Source: Crocinitomicaceae bacterium (lineage in GTDB: Bacteria; Bacteroidota; Bacteroidia; Flavobacteriales_D; Crocinitomicaceae). Taken from it: a stretch of DNA of 64,000 nucleotides. Positions 2,435 through 48,678 of the stretch are shown here, piece by piece. How positions within the stretch are numbered: the stretch's first letter is position 1; the number at the start of each line of letters is the position of its first letter. Under the pieces are notes generated by a model that was not told where the DNA came from, did not search any database, and saw only the letters and a list, made by a program, of their open reading frames with translations. The DNA lies in the NCBI GenBank assembly GCA_018402525.1, contig JAGYIR010000010.1, forward strand, positions 62,001 through 126,000. The letters are read 5' to 3'. A program made the position numbers and the translations under genes.

Positions 2435-4877
2435 ATGTATGCTTTTGAATCTGTAGGATATCAATTATTGCCACTATTGACGTGCGGTTTGCTGCTCTTG
2501 CTAGCAGCAGTCACTGTGCAAGGTAGGTAGTACTTGTTTTATACATATGGATGTTGTACTCCAACAAATCAAACGACTGATTGACCGAATGTAGGATTTG
2601 GCCCTGACTATTATTCATGCGATCCTGTCAGCTGCCAAGGGGCGTGCCACTGCCCTTCCCTATCACCACCAGGTGGGCAAGTTCCTCAAAGCATTCCTCA
2701 GTTTGTCCTCATCACTCATGATGACGCCATCTCTCCTCTAGCGAATACCGTTGTTCGATCTGTTACAGATGGTTTCAAAAACCCAAATGGATGTAATGTA
2801 GTAGCGACGTGGTTCACGACTTCAACTGGCTCAAGCTGTGATCTTGCCAAATCTTTGTACGATGAGAATCACGAGATTGCATTGCACACTGTTAATCATA
2901 AATCTCTTTTACCAGGCTTGGCTGATATGGAGAACGAAATCATGGATGCTAGACAAGATATGGAAGCGTGTGGGATTCCTAGGGAAGAAATGGTTGGATT
3001 CAGATCTCCCTACTTGATCCACAATCCCTCTGTGAGGCGTATCCTTCACAAGCACAATCTTCTCTACGATTCCTCCATTATAGATTTCATTGGCAGTCAG
3101 TCGACGACAACAAAGAATTTTGGAAATAGACTGTGGCCTTACAGCATGGACTCTGGGATAATTCAGAACTGTGCTTGGACAGCACCAGCTGGATCCTGCA
3201 CAGAGGATGAAGTGTATCCAGGGATGTGGGAGGTTCCTTTGTGGCCTCTATTGAACGATACTGTTGACCAGCCTAATAATGGTAAGCATGCGCGTGAGAT
3301 TGATCTGATTTGACTAAAGTACTCTTATTTTTCTTGAATATTCCATCTGCAGCCTACAGCATGGATCCTGGACCAGGATTCGGGGGTGATCTTTACACAA
3401 CATTGGTGACAAATTTTGATGAAGCGTACACTGGCAACAGAGCGCCGTTCCCGCTCTTCACACATGCACAGTGGTATACAGATGAAAACATTGCAGATAC
3501 TCGAAAGTTCATTGAGTATGCTCTCGGCAAAGGCGATGTCTACTTTGTGACAATCAAAGAGCTGCTCCGTTGGATGCAGAATCCTGTCTCTGCAGCCAAC
3601 TATAGAAAAGTGGCAGATTGTAAGCCAGTAAATGTCCAGCCACCCGTGAAAAAAATGTGTCAAGTTTATGTCGTACAACCTGGGGATTATTTGGAATCGA
3701 TTGCGGGCAAATTCGGTGTCTTAAATGTGAATGATTTGACCAAGATTAACCCAACTTTGCAGACTCAAACTTTGCAGCCAGGGGACAGAGTAAATATTCC
3801 GCCTTGGGATGATACCTGTCCTCCAAGTTCAGAGATAGAAGCAACCTATAGTTCAACAGAAGAAATAGTGGTAAACAAGCCTCCAGAATGGAGCGTGGGT
3901 GGAGAAGAAGGAGCTTCAGATCCTGCAGACACTGGTGTAGGAGTGACAGGAGATGATAGAGTACCTATCGATCAGATGCCTACTCAGCATCCTGGGATAG
4001 AGGATGGACATGATCTGTGTCAGATCTGGACCGTATCTAACGGAGAGAATATACAGGGCATATCAAGAGCCACAGGTTCGACTGTGGAATCAATTAAAGT
4101 ATTGAATGGGCTGGAGACAGAAAACCTCTCCATTGGACAGAGACTGAAAATACCCCCCTATGCCCTATGCTGCGACGTGGATGCATGCGAGGGATCTCCA
4201 AACCAGGAAGAGATTGGAACAAGAGTAGATATCAGTATGAAACTGATGGGAAATCAAGCTGTTGATGATGGGGTTATTGAGCAAATCAAGTCAGTTTTGG
4301 CAGGTGAACTGGACATTCCATCTGGAGCTATTACAGCCCAGGCTTTGTCCAAAAGGAGAAAAAGAAGAAATCTTAGACAGGAAGATGTCAACACCAGCAC
4401 CCTTCTGTTCTCAATTGCCACAAGTACCCCAAGAAGATTGCATACTAAAGTGTCTGAGGAATTGAGGTATGCTTCAATGGACCTATGTGACTGCTTCATC
4501 TGCCCATTATCTTCATAACAAACATATCAAAGTATCCACATCTTGGCAAATACAATGAATTCAACTTTGACTTGTGTAGGTCTGGTGATCTTGAATCGAT
4601 TTTGTCTGGGTTGGGCTTCTCCATTGTCAGTATGCCTGCAGTCAAATCATATGAAGACGGTGTGGAGCTATCTCCAGGGACACAAATGAATACCGAAGAA
4701 CCAAATAGCAGCTCAACGTTTTGGACCACTCCTGTAATCGTTGGAGTCGCCGTCGGAGGTTCTGTTGCATTCCTTGCTGCAGGTTGTCTTATGGTCTATT
4801 GCATTCTTCGCAACAGGCGAAGTCCATGTCAAAGCAATCAGCTGAAGGGCAGAATCTTCCATCAAGGGTGCCTGTAG
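2435..4877 (+). CDS. Secreted, membrane-anchored chitin deacetylase (CE4) fused to two LysM domains
   Basis: Four exons (2435-2522, 2595-3281, 3353-4466, 4580-4877) give about 728 residues. The first ATG yields a signal peptide with a Leu/Ala-rich core (residues 12-26). A polysaccharide deacetylase domain follows: motif 1 THDD (about residues 70-73, catalytic and metal Asp), motif 2 HTVNH (metal His 127 and 131), motif 3 FRSPY (about 165-169) and a MWEVPLWPL motif. The closest pattern is the animal-type chitin deacetylase. Two LysM modules follow (about 361-406 and 481-525), then a membrane-proximal domain with a basic RRKRR run, and one transmembrane helix (about 682-705) with a short cytoplasmic end. 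An alternative last-exon frame would extend the tail to 4990. Expected role: N-deacetylation of chitin or another GlcNAc polymer at the cell surface while the LysM modules hold the chain. GFAT follows immediately downstream. Confidence 0.85.
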
Positions 4878-4990
4878 CAGAAGTTTCCTTAAGAGCATCC
4901 CATTCAAAGAAATTGGATCCTTGCGAAATTATCGTTAACACAGGTTTTGACACACCAACAACGCCCAACCAGAGGACAGCTTTCAAGTGA

Positions 4991-5410
4991 TGGTTTCTTT
5001 CATTTTTCCTTCGCAATCATCCTCGACAGTTCTATTGCATGTAAACTACCATTACAAAGATCTTTTTGAGAATCAACTATGCTGGCACTATCTTGTCGTG
5101 GCAAGATAATCGCCAGGTACAGGAAGGTGTACTCTGCAGCATAGGCATGCAGCGTTTCAGGCGCGTCAGCATCATTTGCATCATAGTGGCAAACTGTGAT
5201 GACTGGTCTTCACCATCAACTAAAGGACGGTATCTCAGCATCTTTCTCATTGTATCAATTCAATATTGAACTAATTAAAAAGCTTCTAATACAATTGAAA
5301 GAGCATATTTTGTCGGCGCCACGGGAGTAGACTCAACGAAAAAGAACAAACTTGGTTTGTATCTCATCAAAGATAAAGGCGATTCGACCCGAATATATAT
5401 CTCAGTAAAT
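4991..5410. other. Intergenic stretch before GFAT, nothing specific seen
   Basis: This AT-rich stretch contains only short frames without family resemblance. It should hold the 3' end of the deacetylase-LysM transcript and the promoter and 5' leader of the GFAT gene. No RNA gene or repeat was recognised. Confidence 0.4.
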
Positions 5411-7927
5411 ATGTGTGGTAAGATAATATCGAAGCAATTGTCTGTTCATTTCGCCGGAGTACTTAATCTCTGCGGATGACTCGGCCTAGATCTGTGTTTC
5501 CGTTGCGTGTGGAAATAGCTGTCTGACTGGATTCTACTGATTGCAGGAATCTTTGGTTTCTATTTTTATGATGTAAGTGCAAAGAAGCAGTCTTTCGGGC
5601 CGCAGCATTTTGCCGACGGAAACTGTCTGCCGATGAACGAGTTTGGGTGTGCCTTTGGGACCAACTACTTTTTCGACTGCCTTGCAGGTCCGACACTCCA
5701 AGAAGCAAATTATGGACACTTTGTTCGAAGGTCTTCGGAGGCTTGAATATCGTGGATATGACTCGGCTGGAATATCGCTGGATCTTCCTGTACAGGTACG
5801 TAGGGGCGTTTGTTTCTAGATCAAAATTGGCCAATTCTGATTTCCCTTTCCCGTTTGTACAGAGCCCAGATGAAAGCAATGAGGAGAATAAGCCTGTTGT
5901 AATCAAAGCAAAAGGAAAAGTAGCTGACTTAGTCGCATTGGTTGCCGAGGAAATGGAAAGCCTTCAGATTGACCAGGGTGCAAGTGTGACCACTCATGCT
6001 GGCATTGCACATACACGTTGGGCAACACACGGGCCCCCATGTGCCACAAATTCGCATCCCCACGTTTCATCCAGTAATCACGAGTTCGTGGTAGTTCACA
6101 ACGGCACGATAACAAATTATAGAGCCCTCAAAGAGTTTCTGTTGAAAGAAGGAGAAGAATTCATGACTCAAACAGATACAGAAGTCATTCCAAAGTTATG
6201 CAATTTCTTGTACGGAAAACTACCAGAGCCAATACCTTTTCCTCAGTTAGTATGTGAAGTTGTTAAGCAGTTAGAAGGGGCTTATGCATTGCTGATCAAA
6301 TCATCAGTGTATCCAGGAGAGCTAGTTGCATGCAGAAGGGGTTCACCCCTGATCCTAGGAATGAAATACGGTATCCAAGGGGGGCCGGCACCCAAATCAC
6401 CTGTTTCACCTAATACTCCTTTGACTCCAAAGTTGACAGGATCAACTGCATCAGCACCGCACTTTCCGGATCAAACTGGAGGGACATCAGACAATCCTTC
6501 TTATGGACTAGAACTATTCCTGGCTTCGGAAGCATCTGCTGTGGTGGAACACACTAAGCAGTGAGTCTTTTTTACCCTTTGCATGAATGATACAAAGATA
6601 CTAAACACCATGTTTTGATTTGTGTAGGGTGATTTATCTGGAAGACAACGATATAGTGCATATGAGGAAAGGAGAGTACACTGTGTATAATTGGAATGAT
6701 GTTGATTCAGCCTCTGTCGAGGTCCGAAGGACGATTCAGACACTTACGATGGAAGTCGGTCAGATAATGAAAGGTGGTTATGACCATTATATGCAGAAAG
6801 AGATATTTGAACAGGCTGAGACCATTGCTCAAACCATGCAAGGGCGCATCAAAGCAACCCCTTTATCTCCGATTAAGTTTGGTGTACCCAACGTTGATAG
6901 ACTTCTCTATCCCCGGGTAAGGTTAGGAGGGCTTGTTGACTTTGTTTCCACCATCAGACGGAGTCGCCGGATCATATTCATAGGATGTGGAACATCTTAT
7001 CATGCTGCCCTCTGCTCCAGGCAGACAATGGAGGAACTCACACAGATGCCTGTTGTGCTGGAATTGGCAGGAGATATCCTGGACAGAAGATGCCCGATAT
7101 TCCGTGATGATACATGTGTTTTTGTGAGCCAAAGCGGTGAAACTGCAGATACAATGCGAGCAATGGAATATGCCAAGGGAAGTGGTGCATTGTGTGTGGG
7201 AATCACAAATACAGTTGGCTCAGCAATTGCAAGGAGTAGTCATTGTGGTATCCATATTAATGCTGGTGCAGAGATAGGAGTTGCAAGTACCAAAGCATAT
7301 ACTTCACAAATCGTTGCAATCACAATGATGGCCATTGTTTTAGCAGATGACCAAATAAGCAAGAGGAAAAGAATCAACGAAATTGTCGATTCTTTGTTGG
7401 AGCTGCCTGATGCAATCAAAAAATGCCTGCTCTTAGATGACTCCATCAGATCACTGGCAGAGAGCTTGAAGGGCGAGAATTCACTTCTCATGTTTGGAAG
7501 AGGCCGAAACTATGCCACTGCTGTGGAGGCTGCTTTGAAAGTGAAAGAGGTATCGTATATGCACAGCGAAGGAATCAATGCCGGAGAAATGAAGCATGGA
7601 CCTTTGGCCCTTGTTGATGAACATATGCCAATTATAGTCTTTGCAACAAAGGATGAAATGCATGGGAAAATGCAGGGAGTCATACAGCAGCTCATGGCCA
7701 GGAATGCAAGGTTGATCATCATCTGTAACGAAGATGAAATAGACATTTTGGATATGGTAGGGGATAGGTACCCTCTGATTATGGTGCCCAATGCAGATGA
7801 GGCCCTGCAGCCGGTAGTAAACATTATTCCATTACAGCTGCTGTCGTATCATCTGACTTTGTTGCGGGGATTCAATGTAGATCAGCCAAGAAACTTGGCT
7901 AAAAGTGTCACTGTGACTGAAGAATAA
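5411..7927 (+). CDS. GFAT: Glutamine:fructose-6-phosphate amidotransferase (glucosamine-6-phosphate synthase)
   Basis: Makes glucosamine-6-phosphate from fructose-6-phosphate and glutamine, the committed step towards UDP-GlcNAc and so towards chitin. Exons: 5411-5417, 5547-5572, 5688-5795, 5863-6560, 6628-7927; about 712 residues. Splicing rebuilds the N-terminus MCGIFGF with the nucleophile Cys2, which must be exposed after Met removal. The glutaminase domain shows LRRLEYRGYDSAGIS, HTRWATHG and HNGTITNY. Two SIS sugar-isomerase domains follow (GCGTSYHAAL, SQSGETADT, GVASTKAYTSQ, GRGRNYATAVEAALKVKE), and the protein ends PRNLAKSVTV as this family does. A Ser/Pro/Thr-rich insert (about 6376-6500) separates the halves, as in eukaryotic forms. 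Its position beside a chitin deacetylase is notable because GFAT is otherwise a housekeeping gene. Confidence 0.97.
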
Positions 7928-8531
7928 TGCAAATTTCTTTTTTCACGTGATTCCTGAGGCAGCAAGAATTCTCCAGACTTGTCGGCACCCCTCGTGAGTC
8001 ATGAGCAACATGTCCTCCAATACTGCAGTTGGGGATCATTCGTCTCCGTTGTGAAATTATCTACAAGCGACGTTACAGGTGCAGAGATGGGATTTATTCA
8101 CTGCGACTGGAAGGGGAAATTCGAATCGCCCAGTATTCCTTCTGTGTACTGGGGGTTATTTTCAATGGAAGATGTGGTCTTGATTGTCCACCTTGCTATC
8201 CCGCTGATGGCGTCATTCCTATGTTTCCATCTAGCATCATGTAAAGAATTCAATGTCATTGAATGTCTCTCAAGCCAAACATGGAACAATGGTACTCTCA
8301 ATGAGATTGCGCCTGAGATGCAGCGCGTTGGGACTACAGCTGGGCATACGAGGCCAATGCAAGTAACATTTACTCCAATATGCTTGCATAAAAGCAAAAT
8401 CTTTTAAATCTAGAAGGAAATCTATCGGAATTGCACTATAGAATCATCGCACCCTACAATGAGAACGTCCTCGCACGAAGCAGCGCAGCAGCAGTTACAG
8501 TGACGTGTTCCGTACAGAGCGGATGTGAAGG
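7928..8531. other. Intergenic stretch after GFAT, one odd palindrome
   Basis: No supported gene. A 142-codon frame (7979-8407) has no family resemblance and overlaps another open frame, so it is treated as chance. A 17-bp odd palindrome with 8-bp arms (ATTCAATG / CATTGAAT) lies at 8248-8264, and a 7-bp-arm inverted repeat (CCCAGTA / TACTGGG) lies near 8140-8165. Confidence 0.4.
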
Positions 8532-11005
8532 ATGTCACACATAGCAAGATGTATCCTTTATTTATTCCTCTCATGTTTTGGATTGAACGTGATAGACGGT
8601 ACGGTATCTTCTTCTCGGAACGAATGGCTGGCTCTGTGCGAAACTTTGTTAAAATCCCGTCACCCTCTGCAGCGCGTCGGCTCGGATCTAACAGTGCAGA
8701 GATAAATGGAAATTATAGGTCTTTGAAACAGGAGGGCTCGTTCCCTCCTGGAGTTGCAGGCATTGTCGTTAACAGTGAAGGTGAGCTTGCCGAAGCCTTT
8801 AGAAACAAGGAGAGATTTATCAAACTGCGTTCTCATATAATTCTCTCAGGTGATTACGCTGGAGATAAAGCATTACTTCCTTCTATCAAAGCCTCCGTAA
8901 CAATCGAGGCTGAATGTCCCACGCCCTATGATGGGAAATGTATGATCAATGCCCAAGGCTTGGGGCAAATTTTCTTTGCAGACAATTCTGCATTCCTGGC
9001 CGGTGTTGAAATGTCATTCAACAATATAATTTTCATGAATGGATATGCGTCGAGTTCTCAAGGTGGTGCCCTTGGAAATCAAGGAGCTATGTCCATAACT
9101 TTCACAAACTGTGACTTTGTAGAGAACTCAGCAGGTGCCGGTGGAGCTCTCTCTTTTGTCGAGGGAGCTTTTCCTGTTCTACAGGGGTGTAAACTGGTTG
9201 AAAATGCTGCTGCTACCGATGGATCCGGATCTGGAACAGGAGGCGCAATTATCATGACAGGTGCTGGGGCATTCTCAAATTGTAGATTTGTGGGCAACAC
9301 AGCTCAGAATGGAGGTGCAGTTGGCATCGGTGGCTCTGCTAAATCTATCTTTTTTGACAACTGTGATTTTGTGGTAGGTTAAACGCTGCCCTGATGACTA
9401 AACATCCGTTCTTTACTCATTCTACTTTCTGGTATCTTGGTGCAGGACAACGATGCAGAAATTTTTGGGAATGACATCTACATGGAAAGTTGGGTTGCAA
9501 CAGTCGCGTACTTTAATCCTTTCCCTCCCCAGGCAGATGTGTATACCAATCCATTGAATATTCAGCCATTATCGTTAATGCCACCAATGTTCTATCCAGA
9601 TGCTGTGGTCTCTCCACCTCCGGCTCCACCGAACCCACCCAGTCCACCACCTCCAGCTCCGCCAGCACCTCCAAACAGAAAAGACTGGGTTTATACAGAA
9701 GATCAATTATGGGATGCCTTAAATAATGGTAATGCGACGATAACATTGGGGGCACATATTCAATTTGCTCAGCAGGGCAGATGGGCTTTCACTCCCCCTC
9801 CTCCAATCTTGTCCGAGGTGAGGGTTTATTCTATGTGTGAGGGCTATGGGTCCACATGCATCATAGATATGGCTGGTTCTCGCTTTCCACTATTTGATGT
9901 AAGGACTGGAGGCATCATTGAAGTCTATAATGTCAGAATGATGAATGCCGCAACAACAGGGGATGGTGGAGTTGTTCAGCTTAGTGCACCGCAAAGGGCC
10001 ATTTTTGATTCATGCGCTTTTGTGGGTAATTATGCAGCCAATGGCGGAGCAATCAATATCAAGGGTTCTCAGAATTCAATCATGTTTAGGAACTGCGAAT
10101 TCAATTTGAATTGGGCTGATTCAAAAGGTGGGGCAGTGTATCTTGTAGGGTCAGCAGTGCACTTTGATGGATCCTCATTCTACCTGAATCAGGCCAATAG
10201 TGGAGGGGCTATTGCAATGGGCCCTGGGTCGACAGCATATATTCTGAATGCGAATTTCACAAATAACAAAGCAGCAAAGTGGGGAATGGATGTCTTCTTG
10301 ACCACACCAGTGGGATCAAAAATATATCTCAACCAGTGGCCTCCAGAGAAGGTAATGCAAGTCTTTCCTCGTCAATCTGTGATTGAGTGGTACTATGCGC
10401 CACCACCTATTCCACCTTCACCGCCCTCACCTCCACCCAATTTCAAGAGGGCGCCGTATCCGCCTCCTGGGCCACTCCCTCCTATGAGGCAGAAAAATCC
10501 ACCACCAAGGTAAGATCCTTCATGCTTGATACTTCAAAGTGCTATATAACTCATCAATAATTTCGATTGCTTGTGCAGTCCGCCCAATTCTCCTCCTTTC
10601 CCACCTCCAGCACCTCCTTCTCCTCCAATGGACAACTTAGTTAAAGGGCCTCCCATCATATGGGGTGCAATCTATACAACTGGGATGCTGGTAATCGTCA
10701 TGCTTTTTCTCGTCTACGTAGCAATAAATCACAAGAAGTATTTCCCTCGCGTTAGAAATCCAGAGGAGTTGCGTGCAAGACTTGCAGGAGAGTATGAGGC
10801 ATCATCAGACGAAGATATCTCCGTTGCTGGTTACTCTGACATCAGCGACATCGACGAAGATTTGGCGCTCGCTGAAATATATCACGAACAGAAGCGAGAA
10901 GAAGAAATTCTTGGTTCGATAGCACATGAGGAAGCCCTGGAAACACCACTAGAGGCTAATATTGATGCATTGAAGCCGAGCAAAAAGCATGAAAAGACAA
11001 TGTAA
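8532..11005 (+). CDS. Proline-rich (pherophorin-like) beta-helix type I membrane protein
   Basis: Exons 8532-8598, 8673-9373, 9446-10509 and 10579-11005 give about 752 residues. The first exon encodes a signal peptide (MSHIARCILYLFLSC). The ectodomain has two blocks of parallel beta-helix-like repeats: recurring short units with conserved F, C, N and GGA positions (for example NCDFVENSAGAGGAL, NCRFVGNTAQNGGAV, SCAFVGNYAANGGAI), as in Chlamydia polymorphic-membrane-type and algal wall proteins. SPPP/PPAPP-rich linkers near 9608-9680, 10399-10495 and 10579-10630 resemble hydroxyproline-rich wall glycoproteins. One transmembrane helix (about 10660-10720) is followed by an acidic cytoplasmic tail of about 90 residues. 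Likely role: anchoring or shaping the extracellular matrix. It shares the + strand with the deacetylase and GFAT. Confidence 0.75.
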
Positions 11006-11488
11006 ATCCCTCACTCTCGACATTCCAAGTCAAGACTTTGAAGTGTTTCAATTGACTACAATGCGAACGACGAAGGAATTCTTGCGCATCTGCAGCTTCC
11101 TCCTCTTTGGGGGATCATGATGCGATCGAATGATTGCAGTCATGACCATTGATCAATGGAAAGACTTTGATCATATGATCATGCATGATCAACTTGATTG
11201 GCACTCATGCCCATACTCCATGATGGCCAGGGCCAACTACACTTGCAGCCTCTTGGCTGATCACCATCTGCAACGCAGACTGATTAAATTTGTGTCAGAA
11301 TAAGTCATTTCTGTGAATAAGATATTCCTGTCAAGGCTCTATTAAAGAGTCGCTACACATTCTCGTTGACCCGAAAATTACGTCAGTTGACTCCCACGTG
11401 GCCTCTCATTGGGGCAACGCCCACTAAGTATCGGTGAGAGAGGGAATGAAATTATAAATTTATCTGGATCTAGTTACTCATCGGGAAT
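11006..11488. repeat. Intergenic stretch with five TGATCA palindromes
   Basis: TGATCA occurs at 11150, 11168, 11175, 11186 and 11258, four of them within 42 bp and two separated by a single base. No gene is recognised. The right end carries an ATTGG/CCAAT-type box and a TATA-like element serving the next gene. The cluster could be a binding-site array or a fold-back element in the upstream 3' UTR. Confidence 0.5.
11453..11458 (+). promoter_or_regulatory. Candidate TATA box upstream of the small coiled-coil gene
   Basis: TATAAA lies 31-36 bp upstream of the ATG at 11489, and an inverted CCAAT box (ATTGG) lies at about 11409. The short spacing would leave an almost absent 5' leader, so the assignment is tentative. 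Confidence 0.3.
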
Positions 11489-11975
11489 ATGGGACAAGCA
11501 GACGGGGAAGATTGCCAGACTTTTCGTGGGAGCGCTTTTGAGTCTCGACCGAACGTAGAAGCGATAGATAAGCTTTTAAGAGAGCAGGAGTTCATAGAAG
11601 AAAGAAGAAGGGAAGAAAATTCGAAGAAATATATCCTCGATCAGGAAGTACGCCACTGCAAGAGTGTCACGGCATCAAATCCTCCACTGACATGTACATG
11701 TGCAATATGTGTAGGCAACGCTACTAAGTGAGCTATTGCATCAGGCATTAAAGAGAGTCCAAGAACTTGATTCGGAGATCGATACAACGATGTCTCAAAT
11801 CTTCGAAAGACAAAAGTACAACACAGCGGTAGAGGCTTTGTTCGATGAAGAAGCAGACAAGGGAAAGAAGATGAGCGAAACTCTCAAATCAATGACGATA
11901 CACGAAGATGAGCAATTGCGCCTCATTGATGCGATTGGTGAGCATCTAATCGATAGAGGGATTTCGATGAATTGA
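11489..11975 (+). CDS. Small coiled-coil protein of unknown function
   Basis: Two exons (11489-11647, 11745-11975) join in phase to give about 129 residues. The protein is charged, rich in Glu, Arg and Lys, and predicted to be almost wholly helical (for example IDKLLREQEFIEERRREENS), with no signal peptide, membrane segment or known catalytic motif. The size and composition are like many small axonemal proteins, but this is only an impression and I do not recognise the family. The stop lies 92 bp from the stop of the opposite-strand helicase, so the two genes converge. Confidence 0.55.
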
Positions 11976-12067
11976 TATTTGAATTGCAATGGTGTTGCTG
12001 GAGACTTTAATAGAGGCATACAGGATGCAATCTGAGACCAGCTTGATAACACATGCATGATTTCTTG

Positions 12068-13623
12068 TTACTCGCTATCAGAATCAAATGTGACCTTTGT
12101 AGCTTTTTGAGTGAAATCAACTTCTCTAAAATGTGCACCATATACTTTACTCTCTTTCTTTTTGACTGTGGTTCCAAATGCCAGAAGCTCCTCTGGGACT
12201 TTTTGATTGGCTTCTGATAGGACATTTATTAGTTCTCCTGCTCGAGGCTTATCCCTTGCCCCTACAAACATTGTGTGCGAAATTCCAGATTTTCCAGCCC
12301 TCCCAGTTCTTCCAATTCTGTGGACATAATCTTCAATTGTCAAAGGAAAAGAATAGTTTATGACAACCTCTACATTGGGAATATCCAGGCCACGCGCTGC
12401 CACATCAGTGGCCACAAGGAGAGGAATTTCTCCTGATTTGAATGATGAGACTGCTGCTGTCCTCTGCGCCTGGGATATGTCCCCGTGGACTGCCGCGGTA
12501 TTCCATCCCCTTCTTTGTAACAGAGACTCCACTCTGACAGCCTCTTTTTGTACAACACAAAGATCAGCACTCTGTTTTTTCTCGATGCATGGTATTTTTT
12601 CAGTAGATCATCTAAAAGACGATCTCTAACGCCATGTTCAACGACTTGGACTATTTGTTTCACAGTATGGCTAGCTGACAATTCTTCCGACCCCACAGTC
12701 ACTCTTGCTGGATCACACAAAAATTCAGATGCCAATTTTTGGATAGATGATGGCCAAGTTGCTGAAAACATCAGAGTTTGGCGATCTGCCCTGATACTTT
12801 GACATATACTACGTATATGCGGCTCAAATCCAAGATCTAGCATCCTGTCAGCCTCGTCAAGGACCAAGTATGATACCTCACTCAAGGAACAGGTTCCATC
12901 GCCAATCATATCCTCTAGGCGACCAGGTGTAGCTACAACAATACTCACCCCAGACTTTACGATCCTCGCTTGATCTCTTTTTGGCATACCACCAAACAGA
13001 CAAACGCATCTGATGCCAACTCTCTGTCCTGCATCCTCAAGTACAGAACCTATTTGCTGAGCAAGCTCTCGAGTTGGAGCAAGGACAAGAGCAACTGGGT
13101 TCCGACCATTGACGAGGCCGGCGTCTATTTGAGCTTTAATATGCTTGATGGCTGGCAATCCAAAGGCTAAAGTTTTGCCACTCCCAGTGGCTGCAATACC
13201 TACTAGGTCTCTTCCAGATAAAGCAATTGGAAGGCATTGTGATTGGATCGGAGAGGGCGTTGAAAAGTTTCTCACCGCATACAACTCATCATCGGATAGA
13301 TTGGAATACGCAAACTTGGAAATCGGCCTTATGTCACAATTTTTGACTGTGATTCTTCTGGTCTCTCTGAACTGACTCACCTCCGAATTCGCTGAATCGC
13401 TCACTTCTTCTGATTCAGTATACAAACTTTTAATTATCGGTTTACTTTCAGTCGCTAACCGCCTGTCTCCGACAAGGGCAAGAATCTTCTCGCCACCTGC
13501 ATGCTTGACCTTGGCCGCAAGCTGCGGAGTCTCAACCTTTGATCGCTTCTCTTTTCTCTCTTTCTTCTCCTTTGATGATTTTTTTGATTTTCTTTTCTTC
13601 TTCTTCTCAGAATCCTGACCCAT
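12068..13623 (-). CDS. DBP3: DEAD-box ATP-dependent RNA helicase, DBP3/RH5 type (frame interrupted)
   Basis: Nucleolar DEAD-box helicase expected to act in ribosomal RNA processing. The Lys-rich N-terminus ([20 protein letters not shown]) and the C-terminus ([12 protein letters not shown] ... KATKVTFD) match DBP3 and plant RH5. Motifs in order: ATGSGKT (I), PTRELAQQ (Ia), TPGR (Ib), DEAD (II), SAT (III), [12 protein letters not shown] (V) and [10 protein letters not shown] (VI). Translation from 13623 runs to about 12550 and then must shift frame: a run of five T on the + strand (12545-12549) encodes Lys codons in VLYKKEAVRVE, and one extra base restores the family sequence. The rest reads cleanly to the stop at 12068-12070. 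The gene is either functional with a sequence error or recently broken. Full length would be about 518 residues. Confidence 0.9.
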
Positions 13624-13863
13624 TTTGCCGCACTTGTCCTTGCACAGGGTTCTTGCCGTAGCCAAAGTGCAAACTATTTCAGCCCTTTGAAAATATCTAC
13701 ATGATGCAGGGACACAGAATGAATTCAAATTCAAAGTCATCTGACAATCATACAATTGGCAGGTTCGATGGAATAAAAAAGTCCAAGAGTAGAACTCACG
13801 CATGCACTGCTCACAACTCACGTTGAAGGGATTCAAATGATTTCCGCTACACACTGTATTGGT
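13624..13863. other. 5' flank of the DBP3-type helicase
   Basis: The reverse-strand frame stays open upstream of the helicase Met (to about 13854), but this region lacks the Lys-rich character of the N-terminus and has no family match. It is taken as leader or promoter. The LINE remnant begins immediately beyond. Confidence 0.35.
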
Positions 13864-36690: not shown

Positions 36691-39183
36691 ATGTTCGCAA
36701 GCGCGAAACTCTTGTACTTTCTGATCGGACTGATCTTTTGCCTTGGACCTGCCCAGGGTGACGGAACACCAACCCTTGCCCATATCAAGGACCTGGACAA
36801 GAATAATTTCGAGGAATTCATCTCCAACAGTCAATACGCACTGGTGAGCGAACCTGTCTGACTTGCTGCAACTGTTTGTCAAAGACGTCTTACTGCCTCT
36901 TACTTCTGACACAGGTCGAATTTTATGCCAATTGGTGTGGATATTGTCAGGTATCGCAATCAAATGCTTTTAAAAACCATAAATTGGAATAAAGATTCCT
37001 TCGCGTATGCAGGAGTTTGCACCGATATACGAGGAAGCGGCACGAAGGCTTGCAGAACTGAACACATCCATCCTGGTGGGCAAAGTAGATGCCCCAGAGA
37101 ACGAGGATTTGGCTGATCAATACGATATTGATGGGCTACCGACTATTCGATGGTTTGTAAATGGCAAGGACGAGCATGAATATTCTGGAAGCCATAATAT
37201 GTAAGGCAATGTTTGTAGCCATCAGCTGTCCTTCTCCTGACCTGACCAAGTACAATGCATTGTTTGCAGTGATTCTTTTATGGGATGGATTAGAAAAGTG
37301 ATGACCACACCAGCCGAAGAAATCAACACAGAAGAAGACCTTGACAGATCTCGTGAGAATACACTGTCGATAATTGGTGTCTTTGATGAATATTCTGGAG
37401 ATCTTTATCAAGGATTTATGGGGCGTACGTTTTACAATGAAAGCTACAAATGAAGATATAGACACTTGTAGAGTATGCTTGTTATAATTCCCTTGCCAAA
37501 TGTGATGCAGTTGCCATGTTCAGTGAAGATGTGGTGTTCTACAGGACAACCAATAGGGATCTTGTGCAGGTTGAAAATACTCCGGGTAAGAGTACCTGAT
37601 TATACTGTTACAGAGACATGTGGATGACTAGAATCCTATCATGTGGTTTGATGCAGGCCTTGTATTCAGCAAAAACATCTCTGGGCATCCTTTTGAGGTT
37701 ATCAGAAAAGCATTGGTGGTAAGAGGTGCGTAGTTGTTCCTGGTACAAGATTTGCCTGCAGGTGTACACATCTTTTCACCAGTTGATAGAAGTCACGTAT
37801 TATGATGAAATGCAGAAGGTGAATTGGCTGAGAATGAAATCTATGACTTTATAGATGCACACAAATACCCAGATTATTTCATGTTTGGGACAGGTGCAGT
37901 TGAGAATATGACAGAAACGATTGAAAAAGTGGATAGAGAATTCCATGTGAGTAAGACTTGTGCAGATCAGTTCCAAAAGATTCTTGATGAACATTAACAT
38001 GATCTATTGTACTGCAGATCCACGTAGTTGTGAACGAGGATACCCTTGAAGATGCCAATTTTTTGGAATCGGTGAGGGAAGCTGGTAAAGATGTACGTGG
38101 AGGCCTCAGCAAATGTTAATGCTATGTATTTTCTTCCCTGTGACTCGGTGTTGTGATAAAATTATGCAGGTTCAATCCAAATGCGCCCTTTTCCTCTCAG
38201 TTTTGGATGCAAAATCTCCACTTATGGATTCATTCAAAATTCAGAATGTCAGCAATATTCAGGTAATCCAGTCTTGTTCGAACGAATACAAGCAATATAA
38301 TACTTCCTCACCACAATATTTCGAAATGTATTCAGATTTTTGCCGCACAAACGCAATCTATCCGGAAATACAGCCTGGACCCAGTTGATCCAAAGAACTT
38401 TGATCCCGAGATTGTCATTGCCTTTTCAAAGAGCATTGCTTCTGGCGAAAGGAAATATCGCCAGTATGCCTCAGGTTGGTTTTTGCATGTTGTTCATGGG
38501 TTTATTACTCAAAGAAAAGGTTGCTAAGGCATTTTTTTGGATGGCATGCAGGCGCAGCACCTGATAATAATTCCGAAAATGGCATAACAATTGTTGTTCG
38601 AGACACGATGGATTCAATTGCCAAAGATCCAGAGAAAGACGTTCTCGTACACGTCTATCAACCAGAAGATGACGAATCAGTTTATATCAACTCCGATTTG
38701 GAAAATCTTGCAAAGGCATTGGCGAATATTTCATCGATTGTATTGTCCAAGTTTGATGCCTCTGTCAACGAGCATGAAGACATTGACTATGCATTCGAGG
38801 TAAGGTGTTGCGATCGAAACCCGTATTCGATTCTATTAAAAGTTTCAAGACATCAAATTTTATGTTCTTCGCAGGAGCTTCCAAAGATTGTCTTATTCCC
38901 AGCCAAACAAAATGCAAAGCCAGTCGTCATGGATACAACCGAAGGAGCAGATGTCCAGGTATGATGAGCTCATCGATCCAAGTTTGCGCACAGCTCCTGT
39001 CTAACTTTACGATTCGTAATGCAGAGTATGGGTACATTCATCGCGGAAAACGTGGCTATCAAGTTTGAGTTGCCCAGCTTAGAACAGTATGCAAGAGAAG
39101 ATGACGAGTACACTGGACCGGAGGAAGATGATGACGATTCCGCTGCTGCTGATGAGGCCAGTGGTTCTCATGATGAATTATAG
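36691..39183 (+). CDS. Protein disulfide isomerase with one active site and HDEL signal
   Basis: Thirteen small exons (36691-36843, 36915-36950, 37013-37200, 37270-37424, 37511-37585, 37657-37725, 37816-37946, 38018-38092, 38170-38262, 38336-38474, 38552-38799, 38875-38958, 39025-39183) give 534 residues. The signal peptide is LLYFLIGLIFCLGPAQG. The first thioredoxin domain has VEFYANWCGYC, a CGYC centre in place of the usual CGHC. Two redox-inactive thioredoxin-like domains follow, and a fourth (LVHVYQPEDDESVYINSD) lacks the second CxxC found in classical PDI. The acidic tail ends in HDEL, an ER retrieval signal. The overall a-b-b'-a' layout with an inactive a' domain resembles plant PDI-like subgroups. 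Role: ER thiol-disulfide exchange or chaperone, with reduced oxidase capacity inferred from the missing site. Confidence 0.9.
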
Positions 39184-39260
39184 TCAACTAGATCTATTCA
39201 GATTTATATATGTAATTATCTGATAAAAGAGTACCGGTTTACACTTTGACTCTCGTCACC

Positions 39261-40707
39261 ATGGGCATTCAAGTACGTATCTGACTATTCAGACAGACCT
39301 TTCCTCCCGTTCTGGGCTTGTTTCTTAAACAAATTATTTTACTTGATCAGGGCCTCACAAAGTTGATTCAGGATCACGCACCTGCTGCCCTGAAAGAACA
39401 GAAATTTGAAAATTATTTTGGAAGGAAGATTGCTGTGGATGCTTCGATGTATATATATTCCTTCTTAGTGCGTTTTTCATCATATTGGAGGCTTTTATAT
39501 CGATTTCAGGGTGTACTACTGCAATCACACTGTGTTTTATGCAGGTCGCGGTTGGGCGCACTGGGGACCAGCTCTTGACAAACGAAACTGGCGAGGTAAC
39601 AAGGTAGGATGCCTCATATACCTGTGATGTCGATGTCAAAGTTGTGACACCACACACCTGAACTTGCAGCCATATTCTGGGCATGTTTTTCCGGACAACA
39701 AGGATGTTGGAAGCAGGGATAAAGCCAATGTATGTGACAATTGATATTGAATGTTTCATGCTATTCCCACTTCTGAGGCATAGCATCCCTCTTGATGTAG
39801 ATTTGTGTTCGAAGGAAAATCTCCAGCTCTGAAAAAGGAGGAATTGGCCAAACGAAGTGCAAGAAGAGAAGGCGCAACTGCTGATTTGGAGGCTGCAAAA
39901 GAGGCTGGCGACAAGGAAGGAATAGAGAAGTTTTCAAAGCGGACGATTCGAGTTACCCCAGAGCACAATGAGGATTGCAAAAAGCTCCTGAGATTAATGG
40001 GAATTCCAGTGATCGATGCACCGTCAGAAGCCGAGGCTCAGTGTGCACAACTTTGCAAAGAAGACCAAGTGTACGGAATTTCCACCGAGGACATGGATTC
40101 ATTGACGTTGGGGACTCCCAGGCTGTTACGTCATTTAATGGCCCCAGCTGCCCAAAAGGTTCCAGTTCTAGAATTCGATCATGATATGATATTGAGTGAG
40201 CTTGGTTTGACAAATGATGAGTTTATTGACCTCTGCATTCTTTGTGGGTGTGATTACACATCCAAAATTCAGGGTATCGGTCCTGTGAGGGCTTTACAGT
40301 TAATTCGGAAGCACAAGTGTATTGAGAAGATTGTCGAAGACTTGGATCCTGCCAAGTACAAAATTCCTCAGGATTTTCCGTACAATGAAGCAAGAGAGCT
40401 TTTCAGAAGTCCAAGTGTCCTGAAACAGGATGACCTTCCTCCTCTCAAATGGAGACCTCCTGATGAAGAAGCTTTAATGGAATTTCTTGTGAAAGAGAAG
40501 AATTTCGATGCGAAGAGAGTGAAATCTGCCCTGACTCGAATAGCTTCTGCAAAGAGTAAGAGCACACAAGGCCGTTTAGAAAGCTTTTTCGGACCTGTTT
40601 CTGTGAAACAAAGTTCTCGGAAGCGTGAGGCAGGAAAACCTGCCACCGGCAAGGCAACTGCCAAGAAAAAATCGAAATTGGGGAAGATCGGTGGACGAAA
40701 AGCTTGA
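39261..40707 (+). CDS. FEN1: Flap endonuclease 1
   Basis: Structure-specific nuclease that removes 5' flaps in Okazaki fragment maturation and long-patch repair. Exons 39261-39272, 39351-39467, 39545-39603, 39670-39729 and 39801-40707 give 384 residues, the usual length. [15 protein letters not shown] starts the N nuclease domain, whose Gly2 is part of the active centre; [13 protein letters not shown] and [20 protein letters not shown] follow, then the I domain [40 protein letters not shown] with metal-binding acids and the helix-hairpin-helix. The PCNA-binding box is TQGRLESFF, and the tail is Lys-rich. It begins 77 bp after the PDI stop on the same strand. Confidence 0.97.
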
Positions 40708-41209: not shown

Positions 41210-43237
41210 ATGCCCATTCAAATGACTATTTATATAATGATGAATTTCTTAAGACTCAATAGAGGCGTCAATTGCATCTTCGCTATCCTTTTCTGTCACA
41301 GCCTTCTCTCAGTGCACTCTGCCCCTGACCAGGTTGTCCAAGATGAAATTGCAAGCAGGGGATTTTGTGAAAGTTATACCGTTGAGGCAGGGGAAAGTGC
41401 ATTGAGCATTGCGCAAAAGTTTGGTGTTGAATACGAGGACTTTGTTATAGCACTTAAAGATTGTATTGGTTACGAGGAGGGAACCTTTTTGCAAGTAGGA
41501 CAACAAGTATGTCTCCCTCCTTACTCTCCAGCTTGTAGATTTGTATCAAAAGTCGATCAGAATGATAAATGCAAGATGTATGAGGTTCAAAATGGAGATA
41601 CCCTCGCAGGTGTAGCTAAGTATTTTGACCTCAATCTTGAAGATCTGGCTTCTTTAAATCTACTCAATCTGACCACCACGGTTGTCCCTGGGATGAAGCT
41701 ATTGCTTTCGTGGGATGATACCTGTCCTGAAACTCTTCTGCCAACCCAGGGGGACGTAAATTCGTGCCAGCACACAGACTGTGATATTGAGCAGCCTCTA
41801 GGGTGCAAAATTCACATTTCAGCTCAGGGAGAGAGTCTGGAAACCGTATCTGCTCTTTATAATGTGAGTGTTCAAGTTTTAGTTCAAAACAACCCGAGCA
41901 AACAGAATCCATATCAGACGATAGAGCCTGGTGGGGAAATTTATATTCCTCTAAGGGCTGGAGGATGTCAGGAGCAAGTTCAAGTGATGCCGTACGTGAT
42001 TTGTATTTGGTATAGTCATCACCGACTGCAATATTCTTATTCACTCTAATTTAAATTTTGTAGGTCTTCGGAAGCTGCTCCTGTGGAGGTGCTTGCCCCT
42101 AGACCTTCATATCCCATTTCCAATGATGTCTCTCAGGGATGGGCTGGCACCCCTGCTTCTGATTCGAAGCCCCCAAATCTTGATGCAACGCCTGACTTTT
42201 CTGAGGAAGAAAAACTTGTGGTTGATATGATGTTAAATTGCATGACCAAGAAAGAGTTCCAACTGAAGCAAGAGGAGTATTCAGAAAACCTGGCATTCTA
42301 CATCAAGGTGCCAGTCTCAGCAGTGAAAATCCGATTTGGTGCGCAATATCTTCCACATGAAAGCATCATGATAATTTATATTCACAATTGAATGTGTGTG
42401 CATTTTGCAGTCCTTCCGGTGGCCGATGAGGTAAAGGGTAGGAAATTGTTGTCAGAAAGTCAACTGAAAGTAGATACTGCAATATTCGGAAACAAATCAC
42501 GAATTTATGACAACTTGGCGTCATCAATAGAAAATGGTGATTTGATAACACAAATGAGAGAAGATGACTTCGACATTGTGAAAATCACAGTAGTTTATCC
42601 AGAGGATGAGACACAGGTGCTCTACAATCCAAGTGAATTCCTACTAGAGACTGAGAGCAGCAGCAGTTCATTACCGCTCCCAATGGGTGCACTCATTGGT
42701 ATAGCTGTCGGTGGAGGTGTCATGATTCTTTTAGCAGTACTCTTGTGCTGCTGGGCATCTGCCAGAAAAAGACAGAAAGCCCTGGAGCAAAAGGAAAAGC
42801 AGATGCAAAAACAAGCTACTGAAAAAACCACAGGTTCAATACAATGTTCTAAGCGAAAGATAGACCTTCAAGCATATTCCGTATGCATTGGTGAAGGTTT
42901 GGGTACTAACGTACCAATACCTGTAGATCTGTCAGGAAAACCAATGAAACCATGTTTGGCAGATGCAAAAAGGCACCAGATCCATGCTGCATCTGAGCGC
43001 ATTGTGCCTGAAAGCGTCCTTGATCAAGTCCATCGATATCAAAGGTGCGACACAGTAAGGGTATATACTCGAACAGAAAGCCCCAAGAGGGTCGCTAGTC
43101 ATCATTCTCTCCTGAGACAGGAGATGAAAGAGCCAGCAACTGCCCAGCGCAGTGAGAAAACAAAAAGCAACTCAAAATTCCCTGCCACAAACCTCACACC
43201 TAGGGCTTCAAGTTTATCTCAATATATGGAACTGTAA
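41210..43237 (+). CDS. Three-LysM type I membrane protein without kinase domain
   Basis: Exons 41210-41991, 42064-42338 and 42411-43237 give about 627 residues. A signal peptide (CIFAILFCHSLLSVHS) is preceded by a choice of Met codons; the first is used. Three LysM modules follow (starts near CESYTVEAGESALSIA, CKMYEVQNGDTLAGVA and CKIHISAQGESLETVS), each ending near a Cys as in plant and fungal chitin-binding LysMs. A membrane-proximal domain leads to one transmembrane helix (about residues 444-468, IGIAVGGGVMILLAVLLCC). The cytoplasmic tail of about 160 residues is basic and Ser-rich with no kinase motifs. Order and spacing (LysM, membrane-proximal domain, TM) mirror the deacetylase-LysM protein at 2.4 kb, suggesting a shared ancestor. 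Likely a GlcNAc-polymer binding surface protein or receptor needing a partner to signal. Confidence 0.85.
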
Positions 43238-43629: not shown

Positions 43630-44983
43630 ATGAGATCTATAGCACTTGCGCTTGCTTTCTGCGCAGTAACCGGGGCTCTCGCCCAAACTCGTGCGTATCG
43701 CTTTTTTATGAATGCACAAGTGTATGAATATGAAATTTGAAAGGGAATACCTCGCGAAGACGATTTTCTAATCCGAAACACTGTGATTCTGTAGCCGTAT
43801 GTCCTACCTACGTGGTTCAGGCGGGAGACTCCTTGTTCAGTATTCAGCAGAAATTTGATATTCTGTCACCAGGTATGTTTGAAATGTTCTAGATAGGTTA
43901 ACAAGGCGATGTCTCACCTCGAGAACATGAAATGTAGATGACCTGACGAATGCCCTCCTGGCCTGTGGACAGCAGACTGACCTCCTCCAGATTGGTCAAG
44001 AGATTTGTCTTCCAGGTGCAGACAAGCCTGGATGCGCAAATGTGAGATCGTACAATAATGATGAAAATTGCAAGGTGTACATTGTTCAACAGGGTGACAC
44101 CATTGAGTCTGTTGCAAACAGTTTGGACATATTCCGTGACACTCTGGACAATTTGAACAAGGATGTGCAAGCCGGGGGTATTTTGCAGCCTAACAAGTAT
44201 TTAAAACTTCCTCCTTGGTCTAATCAGTGCGGTGACCCCAACAAATCAGGCGAGTCATGCAGGCTCTACATCGTGAACAGTGGTGATTTCATTGCTGGCA
44301 TTGCAGCTGCCTATGGAGTGACAGTTGATGATCTCCTTTCAGTTAATCCTGGGCTTGATGCCAATTCTGTTCTTCAGAACAGCCAGCCTATCAAAATTCC
44401 ACCCTTCCCTGCCAGTTGTGGGGCTGGAGTTCCATCCAAACCTCCCACTGACACAGTTTTAAAATGCCGAGGATACAGGGTGCAGCAAGGAGACAATATC
44501 CAGCAAATCGCGCAAGCTTTCAAAACAACAGTGAATGATATTACTGCAGTTAACCCTGAATTATCTGGAGGTGCATTGGTACAACCTGGTACAATTGTCA
44601 AGATCCCACCATATGATAACACGTGTGATAAGCCAATACTGGTTCAGCTGGATAATGCAGGAGGTAACCCACCACCCAACGGTGGTTCTACACCAGTCCC
44701 GGTCCCAGTTCCAGTCCCAGTAACAAATCCATCACCAATTCCTATTCCAGTAAGAAGCCCATCTCCCGTGCCAGTGCCAGTGCCATCTCCATCTCCATCT
44801 CCATCTCCATCTCCAGTCCCTGAGCCGATCGCCTCAGAACCCGAACCTGCAGAGTCTCCAGAGCCATCCGTTGTCGTTGCTTTGGCACCAGAGATCGCTC
44901 CCGCTCCTGCCCCAAGTAGTTCTCCTGGAGTGGACATAGCCACTTCTGCTGTCATGAGCATTCTTGCGTTCTTGTTCTTTTAA
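43630..44983 (+). CDS. Four-LysM secreted protein with probable GPI anchor
   Basis: Exons 43630-43690, 43795-43872 and 43938-44983 give about 394 residues. The short first exon is a signal peptide (IALALAFCAVTGALAQ). LysM modules start at TYVVQAGDSLFSIQ, VYIVQQGDTIESVA, LYIVNSGDFIAGIA and GYRVQQGDNIQQIA, and several end in a [KR]IPP[FYW] motif and a Cys. A Pro/Val/Ser-rich stalk with PVPVPV and SPSPSP repeats follows, then a small-residue, hydrophobic C-terminus (SSPGVDIATSAVMSILAFLFF) with no basic residue after it, as in GPI signals. It resembles plant LYM-type chitin or peptidoglycan receptors in layout. It sits between the LysM-TM gene and chitin synthase, all + strand. Confidence 0.88.
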
Positions 44984-45415: not shown

Positions 45416-48400
45416 ATGGATCATAGTGAGAATATGAATGACGACATAGGTATGTGCGGAGGAGGTGCCGAGTCACGTGTAACACTTCCCCTGACTGGAC
45501 GCGGTTTCCCCGTCAAGTCCGCAGGAGACGCGGTCCTTTGAAGGAACCTCGCAAACACCGTCTGAATGCTGATATATACCTTTTTATATTATAGGAGAAG
45601 AATTGCCTGACCTTTTGGTGGCCAACACTGACGTCACTATACAATCTCCGATTGACGAATACTACCAAAATCTTGCGTTGAGACTGGAGGAGCTCAAGAC
45701 CGAGTTTACAAAAGTTGAGGCGAAAACAGGCAATGAGCAGACATTTGAAGACTATATTCAAGGCGATCGAGAGTTTGCCGAGGGTGTTCAACAGAATAGC
45801 CAGCGTTACTATGACGCACTCAAAGTTCTTAGGGCTGACACACAAATATTTTATCCCGTTCCAAGCGAAGTATATCGGGATGAATGGGATGATGTCATCA
45901 TGGATGATACTATGGAGTATACACATTGTCGATATACCCCAGTTGTCACAGAAGATGCCCGTGACTTTGGAATTGATGGATATACTTTGAGACTTCAACG
46001 AGAAGACAGGAGGATTCGTCTGTTGATTTGCGTCACATTGTACAACGAAGATCAGGATACTCTTCGGAAAACATTATTGGGAATATGTGATAATTTGGAA
46101 GTGTTGTACGAAAAGTTCACTCTAGCAGATGGAAGAAAAGGGCTGGATTGGCAAGAAGTTGCAGTGTGCATTATTCAAGACGGCTTGCCCATGGCAGATC
46201 AATCTGTCATCGCTGCAGCAACAGTGCAAGGGTTTTTCTCCCCAGTTGTTCTTCAGAATGATGTTCTTGGGACACCAACATCCTTGCACTTGTTTGAGTA
46301 CACTGCCAGATACAAAAAGCATGCAGGTATTGACAATTATCCCCCGTTGCAAGTGGTTTTTGCCAGCAAAGCAAAGAACAAAGGGAAATTGGACTCTCAC
46401 TGTTGGTTTTTCGATGCATTCTCTTATTTAATTCAGCCGGAATACTGTGTATTGTTTGATGCTGGGACAAGGCCCATGCCAAATGCATTGAAGGCAGTCT
46501 GTACACATTTTCAAAGGTATCCTAATGTTGGGGCGCTAACAGGGGAGCTCAAGGTTGAGAGACCATATAGAACTTTCCTCGCCTCAGTTCAATTCTGCGA
46601 GTGGAAGGTGTCTCATTTGCTTCAAAAACCAATCGAATCTATCTGTGGATTTCTCACCGTCTTGCCTGGGGCTTTCTCAGCCTTCCGGTGGTTGGCAATT
46701 GATGGAGAACCTCTTCGAAGGTATTTCTATGGTCTCTACTCCCAAGCGGAGTTGAATGCTTTTGAAGCGAACATGTATCTGGCTGAGGATAGGATTTTGT
46801 GTCTCGAAGTGGTTGCAAAGAAAGGGTGCCAGTACAGATTAGAGTATGTCAAAGAGGCTGTTGCTGAGGCAGATCCAGTCACAAGGCTGGTAAATTTGAT
46901 GAAGCAGAGACGTCGATGGCTGAATGGCACATTTTTTGCCATGCTTTATGCTTTGGGAAATATGAGCCGAATCTGGTCAGAGTCTGGGCACTCTTTCATG
47001 AGGAAGCTGGTTCTCACAACTGAATTCATCTATTTGACATTGGTGACTCTCGTAGGAACATGGTTTGGCATCGGTATTTTCTTTGTTATGCTTACAACAT
47101 TGCTGGAAGTCGCATTTACAGGACCAGGGTGGCTTCAATCAATTGGATATGCTGTTGAACTTCTCTATTTGTTCCTGCTTGTGACTCAGTTGATAATCAA
47201 TCTAAAGAACAAACCTGAACCAGTGGAAAAGGTGAGTTGACTTTTTGTCTTTTCTTCTGAAGGAGTATTATGACAATATGACAATGCTTTTCATTTTGCA
47301 GATTCACTCATTCTGTGCAATTTATTTTGCTCTTTACATGTTGGTGTTTACTGGTGTCACGATATCATTCTTCATCACAAACTCGACTTTCAGTTTCGCG
47401 AATGTCTCCTCAGACAAGCTTGGATTGCTTGTCGTCTTGCTGATGAGTGCTATTGGAGGTATTCTCTTTACTGCCTTGCTTCATGGAGATTTAGTGCAAG
47501 TGCTATGCTCTGGATTCCAATATTGGCTCATGGTGCCAACATTTTTCAATATATTGCAAGTTAATGCTTTTTGCAATGCGGATGATATTTCTTGGGGGAC
47601 AAAGAACCTGGACAAGAGGGGCGATCACGAAGCTGTGAAAACTCAGTCAAAGAAGCTTGCATACCGTGTTAGACCAACTCAAGCATCTCGTGCATTTTGG
47701 AAGGCAATGGGAGATCTTCAATCCCATCTATTTGACCAAGAGCAGGTGAAAAAATATAATGCTAGAAAAGAGGCGAAATTAAAGGCATTTGCCTCGTACC
47801 TTCTCATTGCTTGGGTGGGATCAAATATCATCTTGGTTTCAATCATCCTGATCGTTTCAAAGACAACATGGGAAGTTTGTTCCGTAACAGAATCGCAACT
47901 GGCAGTATCAGCAATAAGATCTCAAGCAGATGACTATGACAAAGCTCTAGCAATTGCAGACTTGGTTCAAACAGCAGCAACAATTCTCACGAGAGGATCA
48001 CAGCTGTATCCGTTTGATGGTTTGCAAGGCTTTCCCCAAGCGTACCCTATGCTGGTGAGTGGAGATGCTCAAGCAAATGCAGCAAGGGGGTCAAGGGTGA
48101 CTGTTTTGGCAAATGCTACAGAAATGTTCAACAATCTGGATCAAAGCATGCCTAAATTCGAGGACTGGCTGGCAGAATCAATGGGTATTAATGCATCAGC
48201 AACGCTGGAGGAGCTTGATCAAATATGGATACCAATGCCATCAAACACTACAGGATTTGATACATCAGTTACTTGCAAAGAGGAAAATGGGTACACATAT
48301 TACCTGCAAGCACAGTTCTTGCTTCTAATGATCATTGTCTGTTTCCAGGTAGGAGGCTCCATCATCTTCATAATTTTCACTTGGTGGAGAAGATTTACTG

Positions 48401-48678
48401 GAGCAGCGTTTGGAACCGGCTTTGGGCGCATTCCCGAAGGAGCATTAGGGTATGATGCAGAGGGAAAAATTTTGGACACAGATGATGAGGATGACATGGC
48501 CTCTGATTTTGAAGTGTCTATACAGCCCAATAACCTCAGATATATGACTTCCCTACGAGGAGCTCCGTCTTCGGGTGATATGGAGACGGTCACGGACAGT
48601 GGAAGTTACACACCCACATCAGATGGAAGCATGAGAGGGATGAGGCGCAGAGGCGGTTCCCCTAGATACATCGATTGA
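45416..48678 (+). CDS. CHS: Chitin synthase (GT2, fungal-like)
   Basis: Polymerises UDP-GlcNAc into chitin at the plasma membrane. Exons 45416-45449, 45595-47231 and 47302-48678 give about 1015 residues. The GT2 catalytic region contains ICVTLYNEDQDTLRKT, CIIQDGLP, FDAGTRPMPNAL (DVGT-like donor Asp), FLTVLPGAFSAFRW, YLAEDRIL (the ED of the GEDR motif) and QRRRWLNG, the signature of processive chitin synthases. About seven transmembrane segments follow, with a large external loop between the last two (about 47880-48300) and an acidic/Ser-rich cytoplasmic tail. No myosin head or chitin-binding domain is fused. The pattern is closest to fungal division I-like and protist synthases. It is the anchor of the 41-48.7 kb block. 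Start choice: ATG 45416, with 45434 as an alternative. Confidence 0.93.

Follow-up and report, generated by a model that had tools for sequence, protein, structure and literature searches.

The LYM/CEBiP and LYK proteins of plants are LysM chitin receptors. LysM proteins also occur in other green lineages, where they are tied to peptidoglycan in the excerpted text of PMC4815162. As for the polymer itself, division 1 chitin synthases have been described from the trebouxiophyte green algae Chlorella and Picochlorum, and the excerpts of PMC5122149 liken the Chlorella enzyme to those of oomycetes and ciliates, place the chitin synthases of algal viruses in fungal division 2, and leave open the route by which green algae acquired chitin synthase. 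The Chlorella and Picochlorum enzymes are both part of the analysis excerpted in PMC4471660, and chitin in Chlorella is the subject of a review (PMC12566737, excerpt). According to excerpts of PMC5408694, some green algae are reported to contain chitin, it is called rare in algal walls, and chloroviruses carry genes for glutamine:fructose-6-phosphate amidotransferase (GFAT), chitin synthase and hyaluronan synthase. A first-pass annotation of the DNA studied here had treated chitin genes as unusual in the green lineage, which holds only in part. Chitin synthase is not general in this lineage, because the excerpted text of PMC3797821 lists it among the GT2 enzymes not found in plants, but it is not unprecedented, because the Chlorella and Picochlorum enzymes are published and chitin itself has been reported.

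Here, we describe a window of 64,000 nucleotides (positions 62,001-126,000 of the 603,575-base contig JAGYIR010000010.1, hereafter C6) that consists of eukaryotic nuclear DNA, in an assembly filed as prokaryote. The window is most likely nuclear DNA of a green-lineage, plastid-bearing eukaryote (alga), and carries a chitin synthase (CHS), a CE4 deacetylase with LysM modules, two further LysM surface proteins and GFAT. Judging from the genes, we consider it about 60% probable that this chromosome stretch serves to make a GlcNAc polymer, deacetylate part of it and tether it at the cell surface. No title or abstract opening among the papers listed in our literature search, outside of which the subscription literature largely lay, describes such a green-algal chitin neighbourhood, and the word "chitin" was absent from the main text of the green-algal genome papers probed (their text, not their genes), which lends no support to a known linkage. 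The linkage of chitin genes in a green alga is therefore likely new. The linked set, with its membrane-tethered animal-type deacetylase and LysM proteins, offers concrete candidates for chitosan-like green-algal walls, and is relevant to whether chitin binding by LysM modules had its origin, in the green lineage, in the wall of the cell itself.

Five intact genes including a chitin synthase of the division 1 type

The first-pass annotation had placed five chitin-related genes on the + strand, and all five were confirmed in position and strand. Hand-built spliced models (5/5 genes) were intact and free of internal stops, with matching domains and introns of the GT-AG type measuring 65-145 nt. 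Pfam searches covered 10 exon ORFs from this set, the spliced CHS, both LysM proteins and CE4, together with 27 other ORFs of the window and 30 ORFs of its flanks; the LysM, CE4, Chitin_synth_1 and GH18 families were searched for in the whole assembly. Genes for making, modifying and binding a GlcNAc polymer are present and, as far as the gene models allow, look functional.

The CHS gene (45416-48678, +) comprises three exons (45416-45449, 45595-47231 and 47302-48678) encoding 1015 aa, and was assigned to the Chitin_synth_1 type by Pfam, PDB match and motif alignment. The protein matched Chitin_synth_1 (PF01644; 1.3e-41, 142.7 bits against a cut-off of 25) and Chitin_synth_1N (PF08407; 9.5e-5), and Chitin_synth_1 had this single match in the whole assembly. 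The best PDB match was 7wjm (9.4e-102, 344.7 bits), which we take to be an oomycete chitin synthase, leading by a small margin 7xs6 (2.6e-97, 330 bits), presumably the yeast enzyme; identities over ~400 aa were 42% and 40%, respectively. In a three-sequence alignment with these two solved enzymes, the catalytic motifs AEDR (EDR) and QRRRW (QxxRW) were retained, their E, D, R, Q, R and W residues being identical in all three sequences. Hydrophobic segments follow the catalytic domain, the last of them after a long loop.

CHS shares its Pfam type and a green-lineage host with the division 1 enzymes of Chlorella and Picochlorum (PMC5122149, PMC4471660). Its best PDB match, by a small margin, is 7wjm, to be set beside the oomycete- and ciliate-like character of the Chlorella enzyme in the excerpts of PMC5122149; neither these excerpts nor those of PMC4471660 mention any linkage to LysM genes. 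GFAT and chitin synthase also occur together in viruses of green algae, namely the chloroviruses (PMC5408694, excerpt), whereas the genes described here are interrupted by introns and sit in a host chromosome. In addition, the algal-virus enzymes belong to fungal division 2 in the excerpted PMC5122149, whereas CHS was assigned to the division 1 type. Single-protein scans found no CHS relatives in genome_contigs or viral_contigs. The three-sequence alignment likewise found none in viral_contigs, and in genome_contigs it found two loci with 28% and 32% identity, in records labelled Cellvibrionaceae and Desulfosporosinus; none of these scans returned an algal relative. The viral scans, which were of IMG/VR, returned no chlorovirus gene either and therefore do not show that viral relatives of CHS are absent.

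A membrane-anchored CE4 deacetylase with LysM modules, and its neighbour GFAT

The CE4-LysM gene (2435-4877, +; exons 2435-2522, 2595-3281, 3353-4466 and 4580-4877; 728 aa) encodes, according to its spliced model, Pfam and PDB match, a CE4 chitin deacetylase domain followed by two LysM modules, a juxtamembrane domain and a transmembrane (TM) helix. Pfam returned Polysacc_deac_1 (PF01522; 9.6e-8, 32.5 bits against a cut-off of 23.1) and two LysM stretches, and hydrophobic segments span residues 10-28 and 682-700. The assembly as a whole gave four CE4 matches, of which the window gene is one. In the PDB, the protein best matched the chitin deacetylase 5z34 (1.4e-33, query residues 37-348), followed by 5zns (1.7e-24); we assume both to be insect (Bombyx) enzymes. 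The catalytic domain aligned end to end with both solved chitin deacetylases through the motifs THDD, HTVNH and RSPY, in which the acidic pair, HxxxH and the RxPY-type motif are kept. The metal-binding Asp and two His are also retained (THDD and HTVNH, compared with TFDD and HSISH/HSITH in the PDB enzymes). Motif 1 is one substitution away from the TFDD of both, and because it reads THDD, deacetylase activity is not certain. The likeness to insect-type CE4 deacetylases thus extends over the whole catalytic domain with its metal-binding and catalytic motifs, whereas the algal protein differs in its two LysM modules, its TM anchor and the THDD motif. Directly upstream of this gene lies a gene with a trehalose-phosphatase domain (732-1589, +; 8.3e-58).

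GFAT (5411-7927, +) has five exons (5411-5417, 5547-5572, 5688-5795, 5863-6560 and 6628-7927) and encodes 712 aa with a Met-Cys-Gly N-terminus. The spliced model matched the NCBIfam glmS equivalog TIGR01135 (3.2e-176, 587 bits against a cut-off of 418) and contained the GATase and SIS Pfam domains of an ordinary, complete enzyme. GFAT is a housekeeping enzyme that feeds precursor to all GlcNAc-dependent glycosylation, and to our knowledge any eukaryote making UDP-GlcNAc needs it. Its place next to the chitin genes may be incidental. Right after GFAT lies a surface-type gene (8504-11002, +) with weak beta-helix/PMP-like matches and proline-rich linkers, possibly encoding a wall protein.

Two LysM surface proteins and their relation to the deacetylase

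The first of the two LysM surface proteins, LysM3-TM (41210-43237, +; exons 41210-41991, 42064-42338 and 42411-43237; 627 aa), appears from its spliced model, Pfam matches and hydrophobicity to be a three-LysM type I membrane protein. Three LysM stretches passed the cut-off alone in the exon-1 ORF, and one did so in the whole model. Hydrophobic segments at residues 20-38 and 447-465, with the topology judged by eye, leave a predicted cytosolic tail of ~160 aa without a recognised domain. The second protein, LysM4-GPI (43630-44983, +; exons 43630-43690, 43795-43872 and 43938-44983; 394 aa), has four LysM modules, a Pro/Ser-rich stalk and a hydrophobic C-terminus read by eye as a GPI signal. It matched LysM at 3e-31, and 3/4 modules passed individually; the first module is split by an intron and was recognised by alignment. 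Its hydrophobic ends span residues 4-22 and 376-394.

With plant LYK/LYM receptors, these proteins share multiple LysM modules outside a GPI or TM anchor, topology and GPI signal being judged by eye. LysM3-TM differs from LYK receptors in showing no match to an intracellular kinase, and Pfam found no kinase or other signalling domain in either LysM protein. In contrast to LYM/CEBiP and LYK, the algal genes adjoin a chitin synthase, and one paralog is fused to a deacetylase. The first-pass annotation had envisaged that the GlcNAc polymer is made, modified and sensed; genes for making, modifying and binding are present, whereas sensing had been read from the LysM domains, with no kinase beside them, and was not upheld.

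In a comparison restricted to the five proteins, LysM3-TM and LysM4-GPI were 30.7% identical over 192 aa (7.9e-20), and CE4-LysM matched LysM4-GPI at 4.4e-11. CE4-LysM and LysM3-TM matched at 5.8e-9 over 380 aa, extending beyond the LysM modules through the membrane segment. The juxtamembrane part alone, from LysM to membrane, gave a modest similarity between CE4-LysM and LysM3-TM that beat 997/1000 shuffles, and this domain is split by introns in both genes. Taken together, these comparisons show the three LysM genes to be paralogs. In the whole assembly, 6/14 LysM matches fell in the window; the other eight were on contigs that look bacterial by GC, as sampled in one stretch each.

Gene spacing and the role of chance

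GFAT ends at 7927 and LysM3-TM starts at 41210, which agrees with the earlier description of two blocks 33 kb apart (33.3 kb). Between the CE4-GFAT block and the LysM-LysM-CHS block, we counted 17 unrelated gene-like ORFs in the ORF list. Twelve matched ordinary Pfam families above cut-off, one had a weak beta-helix/PMP match and four had no match; the blocks had rightly been called separated by housekeeping genes, and a neighbourhood rather than an operon. A 414-aa ORF at 14193-15434 (-), without a Pfam match, resembles by eye part of a non-LTR retrotransposon. Within the second block, LysM3-TM, LysM4-GPI and CHS stand in close tandem, with neighbours within 0.5 kb of each other.

We simulated chance placement with assumed, not measured, numbers of 8,000-15,000 genes and 5-30 LysM genes per genome. 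Under these assumed counts, a lone CHS had two LysM genes no more than two genes away in 0 to 9.5e-5 of the simulations, a CE4 gene lay at most 20 genes from CHS in 1-5% of them, and a CE4 gene adjoined GFAT in 0.05-0.26%. These simulations ignore tandem duplication, concern a gene set chosen after the fact and bear on an algal segment of only ~137 kb; in addition, the LysM genes are not independent draws, because they are paralogs of each other. Given that all five genes lie in the 137.4 kb segment, the probability that they span no more than 46.2 kb is 0.047. We consider the LysM-LysM-CHS tandem probably meaningful, as it appears to exceed chance, though only under the assumed gene counts. 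The CE4-LysM gene, by its sequence similarity, appears to join the group as a duplication relative of the LysM genes, and duplication best explains part of the grouping, because the three LysM genes share ancestry.

The strongest competing explanation, to which we give a substantial but less than even chance, is that coincidence and tandem duplication brought together the LysM pair by CHS, GFAT and, at a distance of 36 kb, the CE4-LysM gene, with no function or regulation in common. The 17 unrelated ORFs between the blocks, the housekeeping role of GFAT, the paralogy of the LysM genes and the span probability of 0.047 within the segment all fit this explanation. However, random placement with the assumed counts rarely puts two LysM genes so close to each other and to CHS, and duplication leaves unexplained why CHS should be the neighbour.

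Proposed function of the gene set

Under our preferred reading, that of a polymer made, partly deacetylated and tethered at the cell surface, CHS would polymerise UDP-GlcNAc and extrude the chain across the plasma membrane. As the chain emerges, the CE4 enzyme, anchored in the membrane, would hold it with its LysM modules and strip acetyl groups from it, giving a partly deacetylated, chitosan-like glycan, and LysM3-TM and LysM4-GPI would fasten this polymer to the wall or membrane, or monitor it. Much of the grouping could have arisen when one LysM scaffold was duplicated locally and one copy came to carry a CE4 domain, whereas GFAT would provide a general GlcNAc precursor supply, perhaps as a neighbour by chance. 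The sequence itself shows the genes with their intact frames, domains and catalytic motifs, and the LysM paralogy; from it we infer secretion of the products, their substrate, its deacetylation and tethering, the course of the duplications and whatever regulation the genes may share. A more ambitious version appears doubtful to us. In it, a green-algal lineage would keep these genes as a linked chitin/chitosan-coat module: CHS would sit beside LysM proteins binding its product, a LysM paralog would have gained an animal-type deacetylase that edits the exiting chain, and the LysM proteins would read out the alga's own wall, perhaps foreshadowing the chitin receptors of plants. Counting against our preferred reading, a regular-expression search of the eukaryotic part of the contig, a weak test, was negative for GH18 and GH20 motifs and gave only one isolated GH19-like HETGG string.

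Alternatively, the LysM proteins may sense outside microbes through fungal chitin or bacterial peptidoglycan, as plant LYM/LYK proteins would, and their adjacency to CHS may be incidental and unrelated to the alga's own wall. As a whole protein, LysM4-GPI scored 48.4 bits against the plant LYK4/5 LysM3 family (cut-off 29.3), and no single stretch of it passed. A GPI-type multi-LysM protein resembles plant LYM/CEBiP, and bacteria were probably present alongside the alga, because bacterial DNA was assembled together with algal DNA. However, neither LysM protein matched a kinase or other signalling domain, the LysM genes adjoin CHS, and their paralog bears a deacetylase domain; we regard microbe sensing as unlikely.

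Source of the DNA

In sampled stretches, the GC content of C6 is near 0.45 up to ~137 kb and 0.39-0.40 thereafter. The contig is eukaryotic to ~137.4 kb and bacterial afterwards, giving ~137 kb of algal sequence in all, with the five-gene order wholly inside the eukaryotic part. The composition switch falls within an ORF of the bacterial side, of the DNA polymerase III delta type (L013:11423-12577, C6 near 137,400; PF13177, 1.5e-37). It is very improbable that the eukaryotic DNA was misassembled and its gene order is not real: C6 is indeed chimeric, but GC in the window is steady throughout at 0.43-0.47, the genes are intact and spliced, and the join lies ~11 kb past the window end, with no other composition break in the profiled stretches before it. 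The prokaryote assembly that contains this algal sequence is rated 98.3% complete and 1.5% contaminated, and the chimeric contig serves as a warning that algal genes are present in it. A bacterial or horizontally transferred origin of the window was rejected in view of the introns, the eukaryotic housekeeping genes and the abrupt bacterial switch.

When the first 557 residues of CHS were searched against 399 genomes of the bacterium's order, six matched, including the window's own assembly. The other five matches reached 17-23 bits over ~90 residues and were read as other glycosyltransferases; there was no match in the 20 other same-genus genomes listed or in 373 further genomes. Because this search gave only the window's own assembly and five weak matches, CHS is not native to that order.

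The green phototroph proposed as the likely source in the first-pass annotation agrees with several genes. Enolase scored 621 bits against a Chlamydomonas protein and 546 bits against the next PDB entry, a margin of 75 bits; excerpts of the paper on PDB entry 7N6G name Chlamydomonas reinhardtii and enolase. An SQD1-like gene was called by eye within an epimerase match in the flanks, and the PDH E1-alpha gene found in the window by Pfam was judged by eye to be of plastid type. Pfam also identified two adjacent RelA/SpoT-type genes in the algal flank (C6:34206-36557 and 37065-39665, both -), and, in the flanks, Alg14, a GDP-fucose-synthase-like epimerase and APS kinase. The ribosomal protein uS17 adds little to the green-lineage case, because its top PDB entries, presumably plant, lead one that we take to be fungal by only a few bits. 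Chlorella variabilis is an unlikely source, with a GC content of 67% against 45% here, as is Chloropicon, with 0.5-0.7 introns per gene against 13 introns in the five genes. Picochlorum was a further candidate, being a green alga for which a chitin synthase has been published. Neither Rfam, at its gathering scores, nor tRNA scans gave a match in the window. A weak match to an outer-dynein-arm docking coiled coil, below cut-off (57353-58348, -), is a hint of possible cilia in the alga.

Searched for in the whole assembly, the GH18 family gave one match only, a chitinase-type gene in the bacterial part of C6 (C6:242584-243642), and because of this gene the associated bacterium may degrade chitin. 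Finally, the GC content of contig C4 was 0.547 at positions 1-20000 and 0.377 at positions 100001-104000; because of this difference along one contig, C4 may also be chimeric.
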